Below, piece after piece: positions 3,801-57,360 of a stretch of 64,000 nt of DNA (its first letter is position 1; every line of letters starts with the position of its first letter). The DNA comes from an uncultured Flavobacteriales bacterium. GTDB lineage: Bacteria > Bacteroidota > Bacteroidia > Flavobacteriales_G > Salibacteraceae. The stretch spans positions 1 to 64,000 of the forward strand of contig CAKZKD010000004.1 of assembly GCA_937121175.1 (NCBI GenBank), written 5' to 3'. The translations under genes and the position numbers were made by a program. Below the pieces are notes generated by a model, which was not told the DNA's origin, made no database searches, and saw only the letters and a program-made list of their open reading frames with translations.

Positions 3801-5116
3801 TTGCTTATGGTGTCTCTACAGCCTAAACTGTTTATTGCAATGTATCGAACTTGCCGTTGAATAGGTGAGCAAAACGATTTTGGGAAAATAATTTTAGGAT
3901 CAATCAATGAATCGTACAACCTTCGAGTCCCATTGATATATGAATATTGTCCACTTACGGCAGCTGATACTCTGGAGCTGTCAAAGAATTTTACTTCATT
4001 TAAATTACAGGGATCTGGATACGTTATTCGATAATCCGCATCAATTTCGTGCACATAAGTTGTTTTAGAAATTGTATCAACACAGGTTGGCCCGCTCATA
4101 GCAATAAGTTGAATCGTTTTTAAACCGGTTGAGGCAAAACTTCGCACTGGATTTTCTGCAGTAGAACTTCCTCCACCCGTAAAAGTCCAGGAGTATGTTT
4201 GCGCTCCCACTGAAAGATTTAAAAAACTATCAGTTTGGTTAACACATAACGTATCAGTAACCGAAAAATCTGCTTTTGTTTGTCCAATAGAAATGTACCG
4301 ATTTATTTTTAGAGAATCTGTACAGCCTCTAATATCCGTAACTACCAATAAAACATCAAAGGTCCCTGCCGACGTGTAGGTATGAGTTGGAGATGTTGCC
4401 GAAGATGTATTTCCGTCTCCAAAAAACCAACCGTACGTTAAGTTTCCATTTCCTGTACTGGAGTTTGTGAAAGTGGTTGTCATTGGTGCCTGACAATCGG
4501 AACGTTTGCTTGCATTAAAACTAGCCTTAGGCTTATCAACTATTATGGTATCTTTTTGTTCTACAGTTCCTTCACACCCATTTGTATCAATTACAGAAAG
4601 AATAACCGAGTAGGTTCCTCTAAACTTGTAACTGTGTGAAGGGTTTTGTGTCGTTCCGGGTGCAGTAAGGTCTCCGTAATCCCATTGATAGGTCTGGATT
4701 GGAGCATCACCTTGGATGGACTGATTGGTAAAATTTACATTTACAGGCGGACAGCTGGTCAATTTATTGAACGTGAAAGCCGCTGTCGGATTCTTAAAAA
4801 CTCGAATGTAATTGCTTATCGATTTGGTTACCGTATCAACGCCGTCGCTTACGGTTAATGATACAGTATAGGTGCCACTATTTGCATATACTCTTGAAGG
4901 AGTTGGATTGTTGGTGTTGGAGAATCCACCGTTTCCGAAGTCCCAATTTCTGTAAACAATTGTACCACCTCCAGTGCTAAGTTCCGAAAAGTTAACCCTC
5001 AATGGTTCGCAGCCTTCTAAAGTATCTGCCGAAAAGTTACATGTAAGTTGCGCTTTGGCTTGATTGCAAAAGAAAAGCATGACCAAAATGGTCGCTAAAA
5101 TGTGGTTCAACTTCAT
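845..5116 (-). CDS. Giant PKD-repeat secreted protein, T9SS type B substrate (3' end lost)
   Basis: About 1424 Bacteroidota residues remain. The signal peptide is MKLNHILATILVMLFFCNQA, so the start is placed at 5116 and not at the upstream ORF opening; a TATATTTG -7 box at 5125-5132 supports this. At least twelve PKD-like repeats follow, each with a WDFGDG-type motif (for example WDFGNG, WSFGDGT, WDFSDGQ). PKD modules are beta-sandwich domains of extracellular adhesins. Near the joint the protein reads VAEAFTPNGDG, the beginning of a type B gliding/T9SS sorting domain (CHU_C), and then switches to SerB. The neighbouring divergent porP/sprF gene is the usual partner of such SprB-like adhesins. 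The native C-terminus is missing from this assembly. Confidence 0.85.
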
Positions 5117-5124
5117 ACGAATTT

Positions 5125-5132
5125 CAAATATA
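5125..5132 (-). promoter_or_regulatory. Bacteroidota -7 box for the PKD protein gene
   Basis: Minus strand TATATTTG, an exact TAnnTTTG match, 8 bases before the ATG at 5116. No clear -33 TTTG at the usual distance. Confidence 0.5.
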
Positions 5133-5212
5133 ACTAGTCTAGTTACCTCTTGTGTTAAAGATGTATAGGCATTCACTAAAGTTGGGTTTGGGTTTACTAA
5201 AACCTATTCATT

Positions 5213-50434: not shown

Positions 50435-51217
50435 ATGTCCATTGTTCAAAATTCAATTAAGATAACTTTTCTTTTTTTCCTTTGTTCTGGATTTTATTTT
50501 CAGGCGAAATCTCAAACCAAACTCCTAAATGGGCAAATAATTTCCAAAAAAGATAGTTCAAAACTAGTAGGAGTGCATGTGGTTAATATTTCCACGAATC
50601 AAGCTACAAATTCAATTGCAGAGGGTTTTTTTACCATGCCATACCAACCAGGAGACACTATTTTATTAACCTCAATTGGGTACAACGAACACTTTTTATA
50701 CACCGGAATGTTTTGGGTAGCAAGTGGACAATTGATTTCAATATACATGTCTGAAAAAGTGTATGACTTACCCGGTGTGGATGTAAATCAATACAATTCA
50801 AAAGAAGAGTTCAAGGAAGATTTCACCAACAAGGCACCAGCTAAACCAGTTAATAAGGAGTTGTTCCAATACGAAGGCCCAAGCGAATTGAAAGATGTAA
50901 AAACTGACCTCAACGCTCATATTCCTTTAGGTAGTCCAATTACTAAACTTTACAATAAAATAGGCAAAGAAGCCAGAAAGGCAAAAAAACTGGCCAAAGC
51001 AAAGGAAACTGAAGAAAGAGCCAAAACTATAGAACAGAAATACAACCCAGGAGTTGTTCAACGCGTTTTAGAATTAGAATCGAAAACCGACGCTCAAAAA
51101 TTCATGGAGACCTGCCCGCTTGATGATGATTTTGTGGTTCGAGCAAAAGAATACGACATCGTAAAAGCCATATTAGATTGTCAGAAAACACAAGCCAACG
51201 AAAAGAATGACCAATAA
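50435..51217 (+). CDS. Exported protein with carboxypeptidase regulatory-like domain
   Basis: 260 residues with a leader ending FQAKSQ. LLNGQIISKKDSSKLVGVHV, SIAEGFFTMPYQPGDTILLT and SIGYNE are the CarboxypepD_reg-like fold at the N-terminus (about 28-110). The rest is charged and helical (ARKAKKLAKAKETEERAK), with no TonB-receptor barrel attached. Small proteins of this kind are common envelope proteins in Bacteroidota; function unknown. Confidence 0.75.
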   Translation: MSIVQNSIKITFLFFLCSGFYFQAKSQTKLLNGQIISKKDSSKLVGVHVVNISTNQATNSIAEGFFTMPYQPGDTILLTSIGYNEHFLYTGMFWVASGQLISIYMSEKVYDLPGVDVNQYNSKEEFKEDFTNKAPAKPVNKELFQYEGPSELKDVKTDLNAHIPLGSPITKLYNKIGKEARKAKKLAKAKETEERAKTIEQKYNPGVVQRVLELESKTDAQKFMETCPLDDDFVVRAKEYDIVKAILDCQKTQANEKNDQ

Positions 51218-51232
51218 TTGACATTTGTCAAT
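51217..51232. promoter_or_regulatory. Palindromic operator of CRP/FNR type upstream of the hvf cluster
   Basis: ATTGACA-TT-TGTCAAT, a perfect 7-2-7 inverted repeat with TTGA-N6-TCAA half-sites, 60 bases upstream of the hvfA start. A weak -7 box, TATATTAG, at 51262-51269 puts the palindrome about 50 bases upstream of a likely start of transcription. The TTGA-N6-TCAA spacing matches CRP/FNR-family sites (established); regulator identity is inference. Confidence 0.5.
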
Positions 51233-51291
51233 CTTTCTTATTCTAAGCCCCGATAGAACTGTATATTAGTCCAATCTTTAAAACTTTAATT

Positions 51292-51681
51292 ATGAAAGCA
51301 AGTAAAAAAATTGGAAAAATAGCAGCAGTTGCAACTGGTGCTTTAGCAATTGGTGCAGTTTCTTCTGAAGCAAATGCAGCAGAATTATTTCAAGTTGATC
51401 ACCTAGGTTCTGGGTCGGAAGTACGTTCAAATCTAATTGACTTAAACAGTGACTTTGTAGCAGAAAACAAAATGGTGAGTAACCTTAATGTTGAGCTAAA
51501 ATGCGGTGAAGGCAAATGTGGTGAAGGTAAGTGCGGCGAAGGAAAATCTGGAGACGACAAAAAAGAAGGCGAGAAAAAAGACGAGAAAAAAACAGATAAA
51601 AAAGACGCTAAAGCTGACGATAAAACCAAAGAACACAAGTGTGGAGAGGGTAAGTGTGGTGAAGGCAAATGCGGTAATTAA
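51292..51681 (+). CDS. hvfA: HvfA-type EGKCG-repeat RiPP metallophore precursor
   Basis: 129 residues. A Sec signal peptide (MKASKKIGKIAAVATGALAI...ANAA) is followed by a spacer and two clusters of cysteines at exact five-residue spacing: Cys71, 76, 81 (LKCGEGKCGEGKCGEGKSG, with Ser86 in the fourth position) and Cys117, 122, 127 (HKCGEGKCGEGKCGN). The linker between them is Lys/Asp/Glu-rich. In HvfA and bufferin families an MNIO enzyme converts EGKCG cysteines to oxazolone/thioamide or thiooxazole groups that bind copper. The maturase and partner genes follow directly, so the assignment is strong. Modification of these particular cysteines is inference. Confidence 0.85.
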   Translation: MKASKKIGKIAAVATGALAIGAVSSEANAAELFQVDHLGSGSEVRSNLIDLNSDFVAENKMVSNLNVELKCGEGKCGEGKCGEGKSGDDKKEGEKKDEKKTDKKDAKADDKTKEHKCGEGKCGEGKCGN

Positions 51682-51701
51682 TAGCTATACATTATAAATA
51701 G

Positions 51702-51732
51702 AAATGCTCAGACCGTTGTCTGGGCATTTTTT
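51702..51732 (+). terminator. Intrinsic terminator between hvfA and hvfB
   Basis: A 12-bp stem (51702-51713 with 51718-51729, CGTT loop) followed by a T-run, 13 bases before hvfB. Partial read-through would give much more precursor than maturase mRNA. Confidence 0.75.
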
Positions 51733-51744
51733 ATTTTCACCCAT

Positions 51745-52569
51745 ATGAAACATGTAGGAATAGGATTTAGAAGAGATATTGCGGAAGAAATGCTCTCGCT
51801 TGAAGCCTCTAAACGACCTGCTTTTATTGAGGTTGCTCCTGAAAACTGGATGAAAATGGGAGGTTATTGGAACACTATTTTCAAGAAGGCAACCAGTCAA
51901 TATAAAGTTAACAGCCATGGTTTATCATTAAGTATTGGAAGTCCTGATACGCTGAATACAAATTTTGTCGGAGAAGTAAAAGACTTCATCAACACTTATG
52001 GAATAGATATTTACTCCGAGCATTTGTCGTACAGTCAATGCAATAACGCTCATTTGTACGACTTACTTCCCATTCCATTCCGAAAAGATGCAGTAAAACA
52101 TATCGTTGAGCGCATTCAACAAGTTCAAGACATTTTAGGCAAATCATTGACTCTAGAAAATGTAAGTTATTACACTCCCCTCGCACCACAAATGGAAGAG
52201 TATGAGTTTATTTCTGAAATAATCACGCAAAGTGGTTGTAAATTGCTGCTTGATGTAAATAACGTTTATGTTAATGCTTTTAATCATAACTACGATGCCA
52301 AAAATTTTATTTCTAACCTTCCACTAGACCAAGTGCAATACATTCACATGGCTGGGCATAAAAAAGTTTCGGACGACCTTATTATCGACACTCATGGTAG
52401 CCCAATAATTGACCCTGTTTTCGAATTATTCGAATGGGCCATTCAACATTTAAAACCTGTTCCTGTATTACTCGAACGCGATTTTAACATTCCAGATTTG
52501 CCCGAATTACTTGATGAGGCATTACACCTCGAATCTATTTGTGAAAAAGTATGGAATCGAGCAAACTAG
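51745..52569 (+). CDS. hvfB: MNIO-type (DUF692) RiPP maturase, HvfB/BufB family
   Basis: 274 residues, a TIM-barrel multinuclear non-heme iron oxidase. The full expected set of metal-ligand positions is visible: His58 (NSHGLS), Glu92 and His93 (YSEHLSYS), Glu139 (LENVSYYT), Asp170 and Asn172 (DVNNVYVN), His201 and His205 (HMAGHK), Asp215 and His217 (DTHGSPI), Glu244 (LLERDFNIP). Family members (MbnB, TglH, HvfB, BufB) oxidise peptide cysteines. The likely substrate is the preceding EGKCG peptide. It overlaps the next gene by 19 bases. Confidence 0.93.
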   Translation: MKHVGIGFRRDIAEEMLSLEASKRPAFIEVAPENWMKMGGYWNTIFKKATSQYKVNSHGLSLSIGSPDTLNTNFVGEVKDFINTYGIDIYSEHLSYSQCNNAHLYDLLPIPFRKDAVKHIVERIQQVQDILGKSLTLENVSYYTPLAPQMEEYEFISEIITQSGCKLLLDVNNVYVNAFNHNYDAKNFISNLPLDQVQYIHMAGHKKVSDDLIIDTHGSPIIDPVFELFEWAIQHLKPVPVLLERDFNIPDLPELLDEALHLESICEKVWNRAN

Positions 52570-53288
52570 ATAAAAGCACCATTGAGCAGCAAGAGCTGTT
52601 GGCACGCTACTGTCGTTCCGGAGAAATCCCGAATGCAATTGAGGCCAATCCAGAGCGATTAAAACACTATAGAAGACTAGTTTACAACGTCATAAACGAC
52701 ACTCTATCCTCCGCCTATCCTATAGCCAAATCTCATTTAGGAGAGAAAGAATGGGGAGTACTTATAGCATCGTACTTCAAGTTGTACCCCAGCCAAGAAC
52801 CACAAGTTTGGAAAATGCCATACGGATTATTGGAATTTGTGACAGATTATCCAACAAAAATTGTCGAGGAAAAACCTTTTCTAGCTGAGTTAATCTATTT
52901 TGAGTGGTTAGAGATTGAATTGTATGCAGAACCAGATTTAAAACTGGAATCATTCTCCTCAACTATAAAAAGGGTGAATTTGAATCCTCATCATCGTTTA
53001 ATTCAGCTCAACTACCCTTTTCATAAGGAGTCGGTAGAAAGCGCTTTAACGAATCCTAAACCTCATTACGTTGTTCTTTTTAGAAATTTAGAAACCTTTA
53101 AAGTTGAGTTTACTGAAGTTACCCTCTTCATCACGCAAGTTTTAGAATCTCTTGAAGAAAATGACTTTCAACTAGAACATACGGTAACCAAAATTGCTTC
53201 TGGTTATAATGTTACCGACAAGGCAGTTATTGATACGCAGCTCAAGGTACTTTTCGAGAAGCTTTCGGGATTAGGACTTTTTCTGTAA
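52551..53288 (+). CDS. hvfC: DUF2063 RiPP maturation partner, HvfC/BufC family
   Basis: 245 residues. LLARYCRSGEIPNAIEANPE and RLKHYRRLVYNVINDTLSSA YPIAKSHLGEKEW form the DUF2063 N-terminal helical domain that in MNIO systems presents the precursor to the oxidase. A C-terminal region follows (about 90-245) with FLAELIYFEWLEIELY. The start overlaps hvfB by 19 bases. Its stop directly abuts the stop of the convergent subtilase gene with no gap. Confidence 0.88.
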   Translation: MESSKLDKSTIEQQELLARYCRSGEIPNAIEANPERLKHYRRLVYNVINDTLSSAYPIAKSHLGEKEWGVLIASYFKLYPSQEPQVWKMPYGLLEFVTDYPTKIVEEKPFLAELIYFEWLEIELYAEPDLKLESFSSTIKRVNLNPHHRLIQLNYPFHKESVESALTNPKPHYVVLFRNLETFKVEFTEVTLFITQVLESLEENDFQLEHTVTKIASGYNVTDKAVIDTQLKVLFEKLSGLGLFL

Positions 53289-56003
53289 CTACTGCTTTAT
53301 CACACGAGTAATGACCGGAGATTGCCCTTCTTCCTCAACTGAAATTTGATATACTCCAGACGGCGCATTACTCAAATCAATTTCAATTTTATTTCCAACC
53401 AATTCTGACGAAAAATCAACCATTCTTCCGAGTGCATCACTTACCAAAACCATTGAATTCCCTGTCAAATTATTCACAGAAAGTTTGTTTCTAAACGGAT
53501 TAGGATAAATTGTAACACGGTCTTCTTCGTTGTAATTCTTAACCGATACACCATCTTCCTCACATTCATTTAGTTGCACAAAAGCCCTTTCAAAACCCTC
53601 ACAACCGTTTGTATCCGTATAAAAATACTCCACCTTAACCCTACCGAAAGATTCGACCGAAGGGTCGAAAATTGATTTTAAAGAATCATTGATGTAATAC
53701 AAACCACCACTTGGAGTGCCCTCGGTTAATACTGCAGCTGTATCTGTGTTGCAGTATTCAGTTTTATTAAATAGAAGAGTAACAATTGGGTTCTCACGGA
53801 TTTTCACAGTAATGGTGTCTGAAGAAACACAACCTAAGCCATTAGTAATGGTATGAATTGCTTCATAATCTCCTTCGGCCAAGCTCCGTGGCAAAAAGCG
53901 GCAACTATCTATTGAAGGCATCCAAGAACCAATGTCCTTCCATCTTCCATTTGGACTGATTGGGCTTAGCACAACGAATTGATTCTCCGATGTACAAAAG
54001 GCCGTATCCGACTCTAAGACACCTGCATCATCGACATTTCCAACCGTTATGTTCACAGTTTTGGTATCCGATAAGTTACCGGAAGTAGCCCTTAATTGAA
54101 TGGTGAAATTTCCAGGTGAATCAAAAATTGCCATTGAATTCTTAGCGGTTGAACCTGAAGTGGTTGCCCCTATAAAAGTCCAATTATAATTAGAAATGTT
54201 TCCTGATGAAGTATTAGTTAGAAATACGGTATCTCCAATGCAAATTCTATTGGAAGAAACAGTAAAATCTGCTCTAGGGCCATCCACTAGTCCTTCTGCA
54301 ATTATCGAAAAATTCTGACTTCCAGTACTCAGAGAGCCCTTATGAGAAACTCGGAGAACATAACCGCCTACCGGAAGACTTGAATAGTAAATCTGTTCTA
54401 CATTGTCTCTGAAATTATCGCCTTTTGTAGCCGCCGAAGTAGGAACAAGAGGGTTGAGTCGATAAGGAGAATAAGAAACACCAGTATTTGTATTGACTAA
54501 CCGCACATCCAAGTCATTTACCAGTTTAATAGTAGCTGGATTTAAACTTGGTGAATTGGCTATTCCTTCAATATCGGTCCAGCATACAGTCACTCTAACT
54601 GGGTTATTACCAGTTGAAAACACATATCGTTCGTAATTCTGACCATTATTCAATTTTAATTCATCAAACTGCACAGCTGTATCATCAATAAGTTTGACGG
54701 CTTTTAAAGAGTTCATTAACCCCCATCCAAAACTATAATCTGGCCCAACCCAGGTTCCAGCTTCATCAGCCGTGTGTATTACCAGCGCCTTGAGGGACGA
54801 AGAACGCATATATCTAGCTTTTTTATTATTGTGGTGTTGTTGCAAAAGCAAGCAAGATGCTGCTACACTAGGTGAGGACATACTTGTACCACTTGAACTA
54901 TAGTAAGCAGAATTTCCTGTGTTATTACAACTGTACAATCCCGCTCCGTTTCCTACAATATCAGGTTTAATTCTTCCATCATCGGTAGGGCCGTACGAAC
55001 TAAATCCGGTTATTCTAACCGCACCGGCGTTTGTATAACCACTCGTTAAATCATTCACTGCGCCTACAGTCAAAATGTTCTTAGCAGTTCCGTACGTCGA
55101 AATACAATCAAACTGTCCGTCCGGGTTTCTAGCGGCCGAGGTAGTTGTCCAACTTCCAGAAGAATTTCGAGCTCTGTGTGAACCAGAATGATTGTCATTT
55201 CTATCATTTCCTGCCGATTTCACGATAAGATAGTACGGCGCCAGTCGAGCCATTTTGTCCCACTCTCTCGTTCTTGAATCATAAAAACCAAATTTGTAAT
55301 CTTCTACCGTACTTATGTTGACGGAACCTAACCAACTCCAAGTACCGTTAGAACTTGACCAGCCAGCTCCCGTTCCATAGGAGTGATTAGAAATAAGCAA
55401 ACCAGCAGACGCCGCGTTAGCCATTTCTGCAGCATCGGAAAACCAGTCGTGCGCCCATAATTTAGCTTGTGGCGCCATTCCCTTCGCACGCGCTGTAATT
55501 CCAGAAGCAACCATAGTACCTGCGACATGCGTAGCATGAGACGACGTGCCAGTTACGTTATCTCGTTGAGTAACTCGGCTTCCAAATTCTCTGTGCTTAA
55601 TTCTGGTTCCACCGCCATCCCATTCACCGATGGTCATGTTTTGTCCTTCTAAATTTAAATTTTGGCCACCATTATTGTGCAACTTGTCAGTCGATATGGT
55701 TTTTGCAGCGTCTGTATTATTGTTTGTCTCATAATACTTTGGCGAACCATCGTCCTGCAAACCTACCAGTTGCAAAAAGGTACTTTCTCCTTTAATTTCA
55801 AGAGGCCAGTTAAATTTTTTAGCCGAAGCCAATGCTTTAGCATAAGAAATACTGTCTTTAATTCTCAATTCTTTCGAGAATTCGCTAAGTTGTTCTACAT
55901 CAGTGCTTTTGAGCACTATTTCCTCAGCAGATTGACCGTAAACATTCCCAAATAATAATGCAATTAGAGCAAAAATAATGGTGGTAACTCTTGTTATTTT
56001 CAT
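53289..56003 (-). CDS. S8 subtilisin-like protease with PKD and T9SS type A sorting domain
   Basis: 904 residues from ATG 56003 (MKITRVTTIIFALIALLFGN signal peptide; the ORF opens 10 codons earlier, but a near-consensus -7 box lies at 56008-56015). Catalytic residues are Asp129 (GEWDGGG), His156 (SSHATHVAGT) and Ser374 (SGTSMSSPS); SAGNDRND supplies the oxyanion Asn. A jelly-roll domain and a PKD domain (FTVSSNRICIGDTVFLTNTS) follow. The C-terminus (YPNPFRNKLSVNNL...GVYQISV) is a T9SS type A signal, so the protease is secreted or cell-attached through the T9SS. Confidence 0.93.
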   Translation of the reverse strand: MKITRVTTIIFALIALLFGNVYGQSAEEIVLKSTDVEQLSEFSKELRIKDSISYAKALASAKKFNWPLEIKGESTFLQLVGLQDDGSPKYYETNNNTDAAKTISTDKLHNNGGQNLNLEGQNMTIGEWDGGGTRIKHREFGSRVTQRDNVTGTSSHATHVAGTMVASGITARAKGMAPQAKLWAHDWFSDAAEMANAASAGLLISNHSYGTGAGWSSSNGTWSWLGSVNISTVEDYKFGFYDSRTREWDKMARLAPYYLIVKSAGNDRNDNHSGSHRARNSSGSWTTTSAARNPDGQFDCISTYGTAKNILTVGAVNDLTSGYTNAGAVRITGFSSYGPTDDGRIKPDIVGNGAGLYSCNNTGNSAYYSSSGTSMSSPSVAASCLLLQQHHNNKKARYMRSSSLKALVIHTADEAGTWVGPDYSFGWGLMNSLKAVKLIDDTAVQFDELKLNNGQNYERYVFSTGNNPVRVTVCWTDIEGIANSPSLNPATIKLVNDLDVRLVNTNTGVSYSPYRLNPLVPTSAATKGDNFRDNVEQIYYSSLPVGGYVLRVSHKGSLSTGSQNFSIIAEGLVDGPRADFTVSSNRICIGDTVFLTNTSSGNISNYNWTFIGATTSGSTAKNSMAIFDSPGNFTIQLRATSGNLSDTKTVNITVGNVDDAGVLESDTAFCTSENQFVVLSPISPNGRWKDIGSWMPSIDSCRFLPRSLAEGDYEAIHTITNGLGCVSSDTITVKIRENPIVTLLFNKTEYCNTDTAAVLTEGTPSGGLYYINDSLKSIFDPSVESFGRVKVEYFYTDTNGCEGFERAFVQLNECEEDGVSVKNYNEEDRVTIYPNPFRNKLSVNNLTGNSMVLVSDALGRMVDFSSELVGNKIEIDLSNAPSGVYQISVEEEGQSPVITRVIKQ

Positions 56004-56007
56004 ATTG

Positions 56008-56015
56008 CAAATATG
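56008..56015 (-). promoter_or_regulatory. Near-consensus -7 box for the subtilase gene
   Basis: Minus strand CATATTTG (one mismatch to TAnnTTTG), ending 4 bases before the ATG; leaderless-like arrangement. Confidence 0.35.
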
Positions 56016-56124
56016 CCCCTTAAATCGATTCATAATCTTTGTTTCAGTACTAGATTTATGTTGACAACAATTTGATGACCTGGTTAGTTGGTCTTTAACT
56101 TGTAATAAATTGAAAAAAGGAGAT

Positions 56125-57360
56125 TTAGAAAAATCGCATGGCCAAAAAGTACACCGCGAACGAACCTAAAAACACCAAACTAGAAATCGATAATAACCTA
56201 AGCCGATTTGGCAATACGTAATTGTGGGACGTTTTTAGGAGGATAAAGGAGCGATAATTCAGAAAAGCCAACAGCGGAGAAGTTAAAAAAGAAATTGTAG
56301 TTGCAAAATCAACCAACTGGCGCATATTTTCTACTATCAGTATCAATATCAAACCTGCCCCAACAACAAGCACAAGAAGTATTGTTTTGTAATTCAACCA
56401 TTTGGAAAATTGACTAGAAATTAGCGAAAATCCTACAGCCAAAGAACGCGGAAAAGCATCGAGGCAAGTAATACCTGTACTGAACATGGTTACTACCGCG
56501 GCCAATCCGATAAAAAACAGACTCCACTCCCCTATCAATGAAGTATAAACACCAATTAATTGAGCACTGAATGCCACACCTCCAGCTTCCAATTCGACTC
56601 CGGCAGAAAACAAGGTAAATGCACCCAAACACAAAAATAAAATGGCCAAAACTGCGGTTCCGAAATACCCGATATGAAAATCCAGGTTGGTTCTAGCCTT
56701 GTCTCCATTGTTTATATTGATGTTTTTCTCTAGCCTCCACACCGAGTGCCAAATAGAAATATCCATCGGGGCTGGCATCCAACCAAAAAAAGCAATCAAA
56801 AAGAACACATTCTTCGTTACTGACCAATCGAAATTACCAAATGAAACCCCATCAAACGAAGTTTTATTGATAGCAAACACAAAGGACAACACCGTTGCTA
56901 GGGTTAAAATTACCACAATCCATTTCATGAATTTATCAAGAAAGGAATAGCCATTAAATAGCAGTAAAATCAAGCACATTGTCAGTATTATTAAGCCCCA
57001 AATTTGAGCCGACCATCCGACTCCAAAGAGGAACTCGGCCAGACCACCAGTTACTACTGATATTGCGGCAATCACAGCAAACATGGTTGATACCGTGAGT
57101 AACACAAACAACCACAATGCCCAGTTTCCTTGCTTTTTGTAGCCATCCAAAATGGTTTTACCTGTAATATCGGCATACAACGGACCCATTAAAAAAAATG
57201 GATATTTCAAAATGTGCGCAACTACGATTACCCAAATTAATTCTAGGCCAAACTCCGCTCCTGCTCTGGTGCTCTGTACCAAATGCGAAACCCCAATTGC
57301 CGCTCCAGCATATAAAAGACCTGGACCAATTTGTTTGAATGTGGAACTATTCAGGTTCAT
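56125..57360 (-). CDS. Nramp-related transporter lacking the DPGN motif
   Basis: 411 residues with about eleven membrane segments. IGPGLLYAGAAIGVSHLVQS followed by TRAGAEFG clearly aligns with Nramp TM1, but the metal-binding Asp-Pro-Gly-Asn is Gly-Val-Ser-His (residues 23-26). TM6 has MPAPMD at 195-200 in place of the usual MPH/MPQ. Such Nramp-related carriers may not move Mn2+ or Fe2+ and can prefer other substrates (for example Mg2+ in NRMTs). The GDPD gene ends 3 bases upstream, so they share a transcript. Confidence 0.8.
   Translation of the reverse strand: MNLNSSTFKQIGPGLLYAGAAIGVSHLVQSTRAGAEFGLELIWVIVVAHILKYPFFLMGPLYADITGKTILDGYKKQGNWALWLFVLLTVSTMFAVIAAISVVTGGLAEFLFGVGWSAQIWGLIILTMCLILLLFNGYSFLDKFMKWIVVILTLATVLSFVFAINKTSFDGVSFGNFDWSVTKNVFFLIAFFGWMPAPMDISIWHSVWRLEKNININNGDKARTNLDFHIGYFGTAVLAILFLCLGAFTLFSAGVELEAGGVAFSAQLIGVYTSLIGEWSLFFIGLAAVVTMFSTGITCLDAFPRSLAVGFSLISSQFSKWLNYKTILLVLVVGAGLILILIVENMRQLVDFATTISFLTSPLLAFLNYRSFILLKTSHNYVLPNRLRLLSISSLVFLGSFAVYFLAMRFF

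Follow-up and report, generated by a model that had tools for sequence, protein, structure and literature searches.

A diverged HvfABC/captophorin-type RiPP operon in Bacteroidota with a conserved terminator-like hairpin after the precursor gene

The HvfABC(X) oxazolin operon of Haemophilus influenzae encodes an EGKCG precursor with a Sec signal (predicted for the window precursor), an MNIO enzyme, and a DUF2063 protein in the order A-B-C (PMC13419390), and the same components in the same order were identified in the window, the whole 64,000-nucleotide stretch of DNA from an uncultured Flavobacteriales bacterium analyzed here. Compared to the Haemophilus system, the window operon has no HvfX, a diverged HvfC, an LGSGxExR leader, a charged linker between two repeat blocks, and a putative terminator after hvfA; the closest solved structure to its HvfB is 3BWW from Histophilus somni. 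The fontiphorin fonABC (captophorin) cluster shares the Lys-Cys repeats, the limitation to three genes, and the Arg-Arg and Asp-Phe residues of the enzyme, and the cysteine chemistry of this class is 5-thiooxazole formation (PMC13097082), but that cluster belongs to another phylum and the window product is a predicted one. The mmrABC operon of Microbulbifer also has three genes, a conserved leader, and a variable number of EGKCG units (PMC12538549); it is likewise from another phylum, and its conservation within the genus is reported to be obligate, whereas two of four congeners here have lost hvfBC. Bufferins (BufABC, with Buf1 DUF2282 or Buf2 precursors) have in common a Sec-exported precursor (as predicted here), an MNIO enzyme, and a DUF2063 partner but differ in Cys context and MNIO branch. 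The chryseobasin/DybA clusters are MNIO RiPPs also found in Bacteroidota and, unlike the window operon, have a C-terminal CPACGMG motif and no conserved partner protein (PMC12636315).

The locus (Table 1), its mechanism included, is very probably explained as an HvfABC/captophorin RiPP operon of the EGKCG (Lys-Cys) class. The first-pass annotation had called it HvfABC-type, as borne out by an HvfB above the NCBIfam cut-off, a KCG precursor, and a DUF2063 partner, and had further proposed it as the best candidate for a new system, which did not hold since the family is already curated in NCBIfam and biochemically characterized (PMC13097082, PMC13419390, PMC12538549). The Bacteroidota operon is thus a diverged branch of a known RiPP class and not a new system. 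All three genes are intact ORFs conserved in relatives, with a 63 bp gap between hvfA and hvfB and a 19 bp overlap between hvfB and hvfC. The three ORFs annotated earlier stood, but position 51217, given as the start, is where the upstream gene ends, and the operon proper runs from 51292.

Table 1. Coordinates of the hvfABC operon and associated features in the window.
Feature	Position	Strand	Description
Region upstream of hvfA	51218-51291	+	Weak: palindrome TTGACATTTGTCAA, stretch TATATTAG
hvfA, precursor	51292-51681	+	129 aa ORF
Terminator-like hairpin and T tract, proposed attenuator	51700-51736	+	14 pairs, -17.9 kcal/mol
hvfB, MNIO/DUF692 maturase	51745-52569	+	274 aa ORF; above NCBIfam HvfB cut-off
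hvfC, DUF2063 + NGO1945_C partner (PME1, RiPP recognition element)	52551-53288	+	245 aa ORF

HvfB matched Pfam PF05114 (MNIO; E 1.5e-97) and the NCBIfam HvfB model NF003818 (375.1 bits, cut-off 360). Assignments to chryseobasin ChrH (54 bits against a cut-off of 600, with no CPxCGxG motif in the precursor) and to methanobactin MbnB (49 bits against 325) were rejected on scores, tree, and motifs. The first-pass annotation counted all 11 ligand positions expected of a DUF692/MNIO enzyme; 11 His, Asp, Asn, and Glu residues (H58, H93, E138, D170, N173, H181, H201, H205, D215, H217, and E244) were invariant in 30 relatives and are putative ligands. Enzymes acting on Lys-Cys precursors keep two Arg (FonB 15 and 16), Asp249 as base, and Phe250 (PMC13097082), matched in the window HvfB by R9, R10, D246, and F247. 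Position 10 was R or K in every FCB relative, and in six proteobacterial plasmid enzymes with precursors not mainly of KCG type, N, D, or Q stands in place of the Phe and position 10 holds a residue other than Arg or Lys. Substitution of N175, D242, or H244 abolishes HvfB activity (PMC13419390), and what seem to be the corresponding residues of the window enzyme lie in its DVNN and DTHG motifs. An AlphaFold2 model (pLDDT 91.5) gave 3BWW, a close HvfB relative (PMC13419390), as its first structure match (TM 0.84-0.90). A tree of the DUF692 protein, set beforehand as the refutation test, placed HvfB in the EGKCG RiPP branch and not in a non-RiPP branch.

HvfC matched DUF2063 (PF09836, 57.5 bits) and NGO1945_C (PF22106, 39.5 bits), both above cut-off, and together with the shared 19 bp this upholds the overlapping DUF2063 gene noted earlier. 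Its sole NCBIfam match was the HvfC equivalog NF050145 (111.7 bits, below the cut-off of 142), and all 29 aligned HvfC relatives likewise matched HvfC only. The profile of the HvfC family recovered the NGO1945 structure 3DEE (8.3e-13), phmmer with the single HvfC sequence found no solved structure, and the AlphaFold2 model (pLDDT 91.2) matched 3DEE first and then the TglHI complex. HvfA also fell below its narrow equivalog NF050188 (23.9 bits, cut-off 95), and because both proteins score under these cut-offs, the HvfABC lineage here is, by profile comparison, diverged.

The six HvfA cysteines (71, 76, 81, 117, 122, and 127) each lie within KCG, in two three-Cys blocks joined by a Lys/Asp-rich linker: the first at about residues 69-84 (three KCG and, as fourth repeat, one KSG) and the second at about 115-129 (three KCG). 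HvfA matched NCBIfam NF050137 KCGExKCG_twice (26.6 bits, cut-off 19.5, E 3.5e-6) and a KCG precursor directly precedes hvfB in all 20 family genomes with HvfB, so the EGKCG-type repeats reported at first pass go beyond chance; across 26 related precursors, 148 of the 159 Cys lie in KCG. Residues 1-29 form a predicted Sec signal (MKASKKIGKIAAVATGALAIGAVSSEANA) in which n, h, and c regions and an ANA/A cleavage site were read by eye. Since the signal region contains no Cys, and no lipobox, HvfA would not be a lipoprotein precursor, unlike the lipidated precursor of a Neisseria dentiae relative (PMC12636315). The motif ELFQVDHLGSGSEVR follows at residues 31-45, and F-x4-LGSGxE[LIV]R or a close variant stands directly after the signal peptide in nearly all FCB precursors, with L069 carrying it at the N terminus of a miscalled gene start and L079 being without the pattern as searched. 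A precursor encoded on a Pseudomonas plasmid reads PFAVQELSSGY in the same place, so F-x4-L-[GS]-S-G is shared by precursors of different phyla. The F-x4-LGSGxExR stretch is most likely the HvfC-binding leader of HvfA; for FonA, no single leader residue was essential (PMC13097082).

The hairpin (51700-51731) ends 13 bp before the start of hvfB, leaving no room for a promoter downstream of it. The hvfA-hvfB gap of 17 of 19 family loci contained a hairpin with a folding energy of -10 kcal/mol or below and TTTT after it, compared to 4/40 co-directional gaps of similar length (Fisher 3e-9, the family loci being related and so not 19 independent events) and 14/380 shuffles. The hairpin sequences varied widely among these loci and the position was kept. 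The case for a terminator rests on this positional conservation across genomes, because scanning the 2.4-kb region for terminators in general gave two sites against 1.7 expected, which is not significant alone. Termination between hvfA and hvfB suggests that hvfA mRNA would exceed hvfBC mRNA and the precursor its enzyme; terminators and attenuation are not mentioned in the landscape paper. In Moraxella and Acinetobacter plasmid operons (L081:2083-2164 and L082:2903-2982), the gap between precursor and MNIO genes also holds long complementary arms, but no T tract. Upstream of hvfA, a 14-bp palindrome (51218-51231) was dropped as a candidate operator as the palindrome of the sister species differs, the stretch TATATTAG, weak as evidence, is shared with that species, and a sigma-70 promoter scan gave no more matches than expected by chance.

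HvfB above cut-off was found in two of four genomes of the genus, 20/35 of the family, 20/42 of the order, and 7/395 drawn across the phylum, and the trait is therefore concentrated in the host family. The earlier statement that such systems are described mainly from Proteobacteria is true of the literature, but 20/35 genomes of this Bacteroidota family carry the system. Other families and classes, as well as an Ignavibacteriae MAG, yielded further KCG-type precursors, and Bacteroidota members may already be included in the part of the published taxonomic spread given in fig. 3c of PMC12452194. In a maximum-likelihood HvfB tree, the 30 FCB enzymes formed one clade (100/98) adjoining the gammaproteobacterial KCG enzymes of Moraxella/Acinetobacter (join 91/80) and apart from the Cys-Lys and DUF2282 (bufferin) enzymes, whose long branches limit this to a broad split. 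The FCB-wide clade, and the same four genes preceding the operon in five family genomes, spoke against recent horizontal acquisition from Proteobacteria, which was rejected. Vertical inheritance with repeated loss is the simplest reading. Among draft genomes of the genus, the operon is decaying: G003 retains it intact, G001 contains a deletion remnant (contig C18, L098, ~4816-5174) in which the frameshifted start of hvfA is fused to the last ~70 codons of hvfC, and G002 has an orphan hvfA (contig C9, L099:5007-5261; 84 aa, three KCG) with a terminator-like hairpin of its own behind it; HvfB was not found in this draft assembly, where the contig ends ~1.2 kb beyond hvfA. The loss of hvfBC in two congeners indicates a dispensable function.

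Gene clustering around 30 loci revealed no DoxX/HvfX gene at the window locus, as the first-pass annotation had stated, or at any of the 20 family loci, and a DoxX gene after hvfC in eight FCB loci outside the family. The absence of HvfX from HvfABC-type operons is already known elsewhere and is not diagnostic, because the characterized fon cluster likewise has no genes beyond those for precursor, MNIO, and partner (PMC13097082). The sole DoxX (PF07681) protein of the genome, a 473-aa frame on contig C12, had no match to the HvfX-like cluster, and an HvfX unlinked to the operon was rejected accordingly. An MbnP-family protein (PF20243, 1.1e-27; L080:8710-9645, minus strand) lies directly before this frame. 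In 14 loci, genes upstream of hvfA encode an ECF sigma factor, a small Cys/His anti-sigma-like protein, or both, and sigma factor and zf-HC2 genes stand beside the Acinetobacter and Pseudomonas plasmid operons (for Moraxella, the sigma factor only in the stretch shown). The window sublineage has no ECF sigma/anti-sigma pair at the operon, and a profile search of the window's genome for an unlinked anti-sigma gave nothing convincing (best E 0.067, with an internal stop). As no recognized copper gene adjoins the operon and the sigma switch is missing, copper induction is without sequence support in this lineage. Downstream genes on the minus strand encode a subtilisin-like protease with PKD domains and a secretion-system C-terminal sorting domain (53289-56033, convergent with hvfC) and an Nramp-family transporter-like protein (56125-57360). 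In several genomes of the window's class (L038-L043), MNIO matches of 248-258 bits were found beside a ~200-aa protein with ELHVCMGLNACKG and other Cys-rich motifs, which has no obvious signal peptide and resembles Buf2-type Cys-Lys spacing in a large protein.

We infer the chemistry, copper binding, periplasmic location, attenuation, and trigger of the system, drawing on characterized relatives for HvfC- and O2-dependent 5-thiooxazole formation, Sec export, and Cu(I) buffering (PMC13097082, PMC13419390, PMC12538549). HvfA would be synthesized in the cytoplasm, where HvfC would bind its leader and activate the HvfB iron cluster, and HvfB with O2 would remove four H per Lys-Cys site to give up to six 5-thiooxazoles. 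The modified HvfA would then be exported through Sec with cleavage of the signal peptide at the predicted site, and the product in the periplasm (or released) would buffer Cu(I) by binding it and so counter copper stress. A Cys-modified, copper-chelating product is well supported by homology. Most transcripts would probably stop after hvfA, such that the substrate and copper-binding product exceed the catalysts. A more specific proposal, which we hold only tentatively, is that of a Bacteroidota captophorin branch in which the attenuator would provide a bulk stoichiometric copper buffer, with an LGSGxExR leader, no HvfX, and a sublineage without the ECF switch that is so perhaps constitutive.

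The assignment to a bufferin operon (Buf1 DUF2282 or Buf2 Cys-Lys) instead of the EGKCG class has gene order in its favor and a BufB match of 274.8 bits, but this score is below the cut-off of 310 and 100 bits under that for HvfB, the precursor has neither DUF2282 nor Cys-Lys motifs, the tree separates HvfB, and F247 and R10 are residues of Lys-Cys and not Cys-Lys enzymes, making it extremely improbable. A degenerate, non-functional remnant is also very unlikely; the hvfA-hvfC deletion in one congener, the solitary hvfA of another, and the KSG repeat in the first block of the window HvfA would fit such decay, but the window ORFs are intact with every putative ligand conserved, and the HvfB of the intact G003 operon is 76% identical to that of the window.

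Less improbable, though still unlikely, is that the same enzymes and 5-thiooxazole peptide serve mainly for another soft metal (Au, Ag, Hg, or Zn), oxidative stress, or copper acquisition. This is consistent with the missing adjacent copper gene, with a related bufferin cluster lying within a mer operon, with ties of such clusters to gold and oxidative stress (PMC13097082), and with the downstream Nramp-family gene, which recurs near hvfABC in three relatives. However, EGKCG and bufferin products that have been assayed bind Cu in general, and inducers often include excess copper (PMC13097082), and the Nramp gene is on the opposite strand outside the operon. The hairpin after hvfA may also cap and stabilize processed hvfA mRNA instead of, or in addition to, attenuating; the Moraxella and Acinetobacter hairpins in the same gap suggest this, but the run of TTTT or more in the family loci is that of intrinsic terminators, and we consider mRNA capping somewhat doubtful.

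The picture of what HvfABC-type systems do is unchanged by this operon, and the conserved terminator, the leader motif, and the family-wide spread most deserve the attention of specialists. The operon offers testable points in the excess of peptide over enzymes and in recognition by the partner, and with it a copper-peptide system whose descriptions come almost entirely from Pseudomonadota reaches into a deep, widespread branch of the Bacteroidota/FCB.
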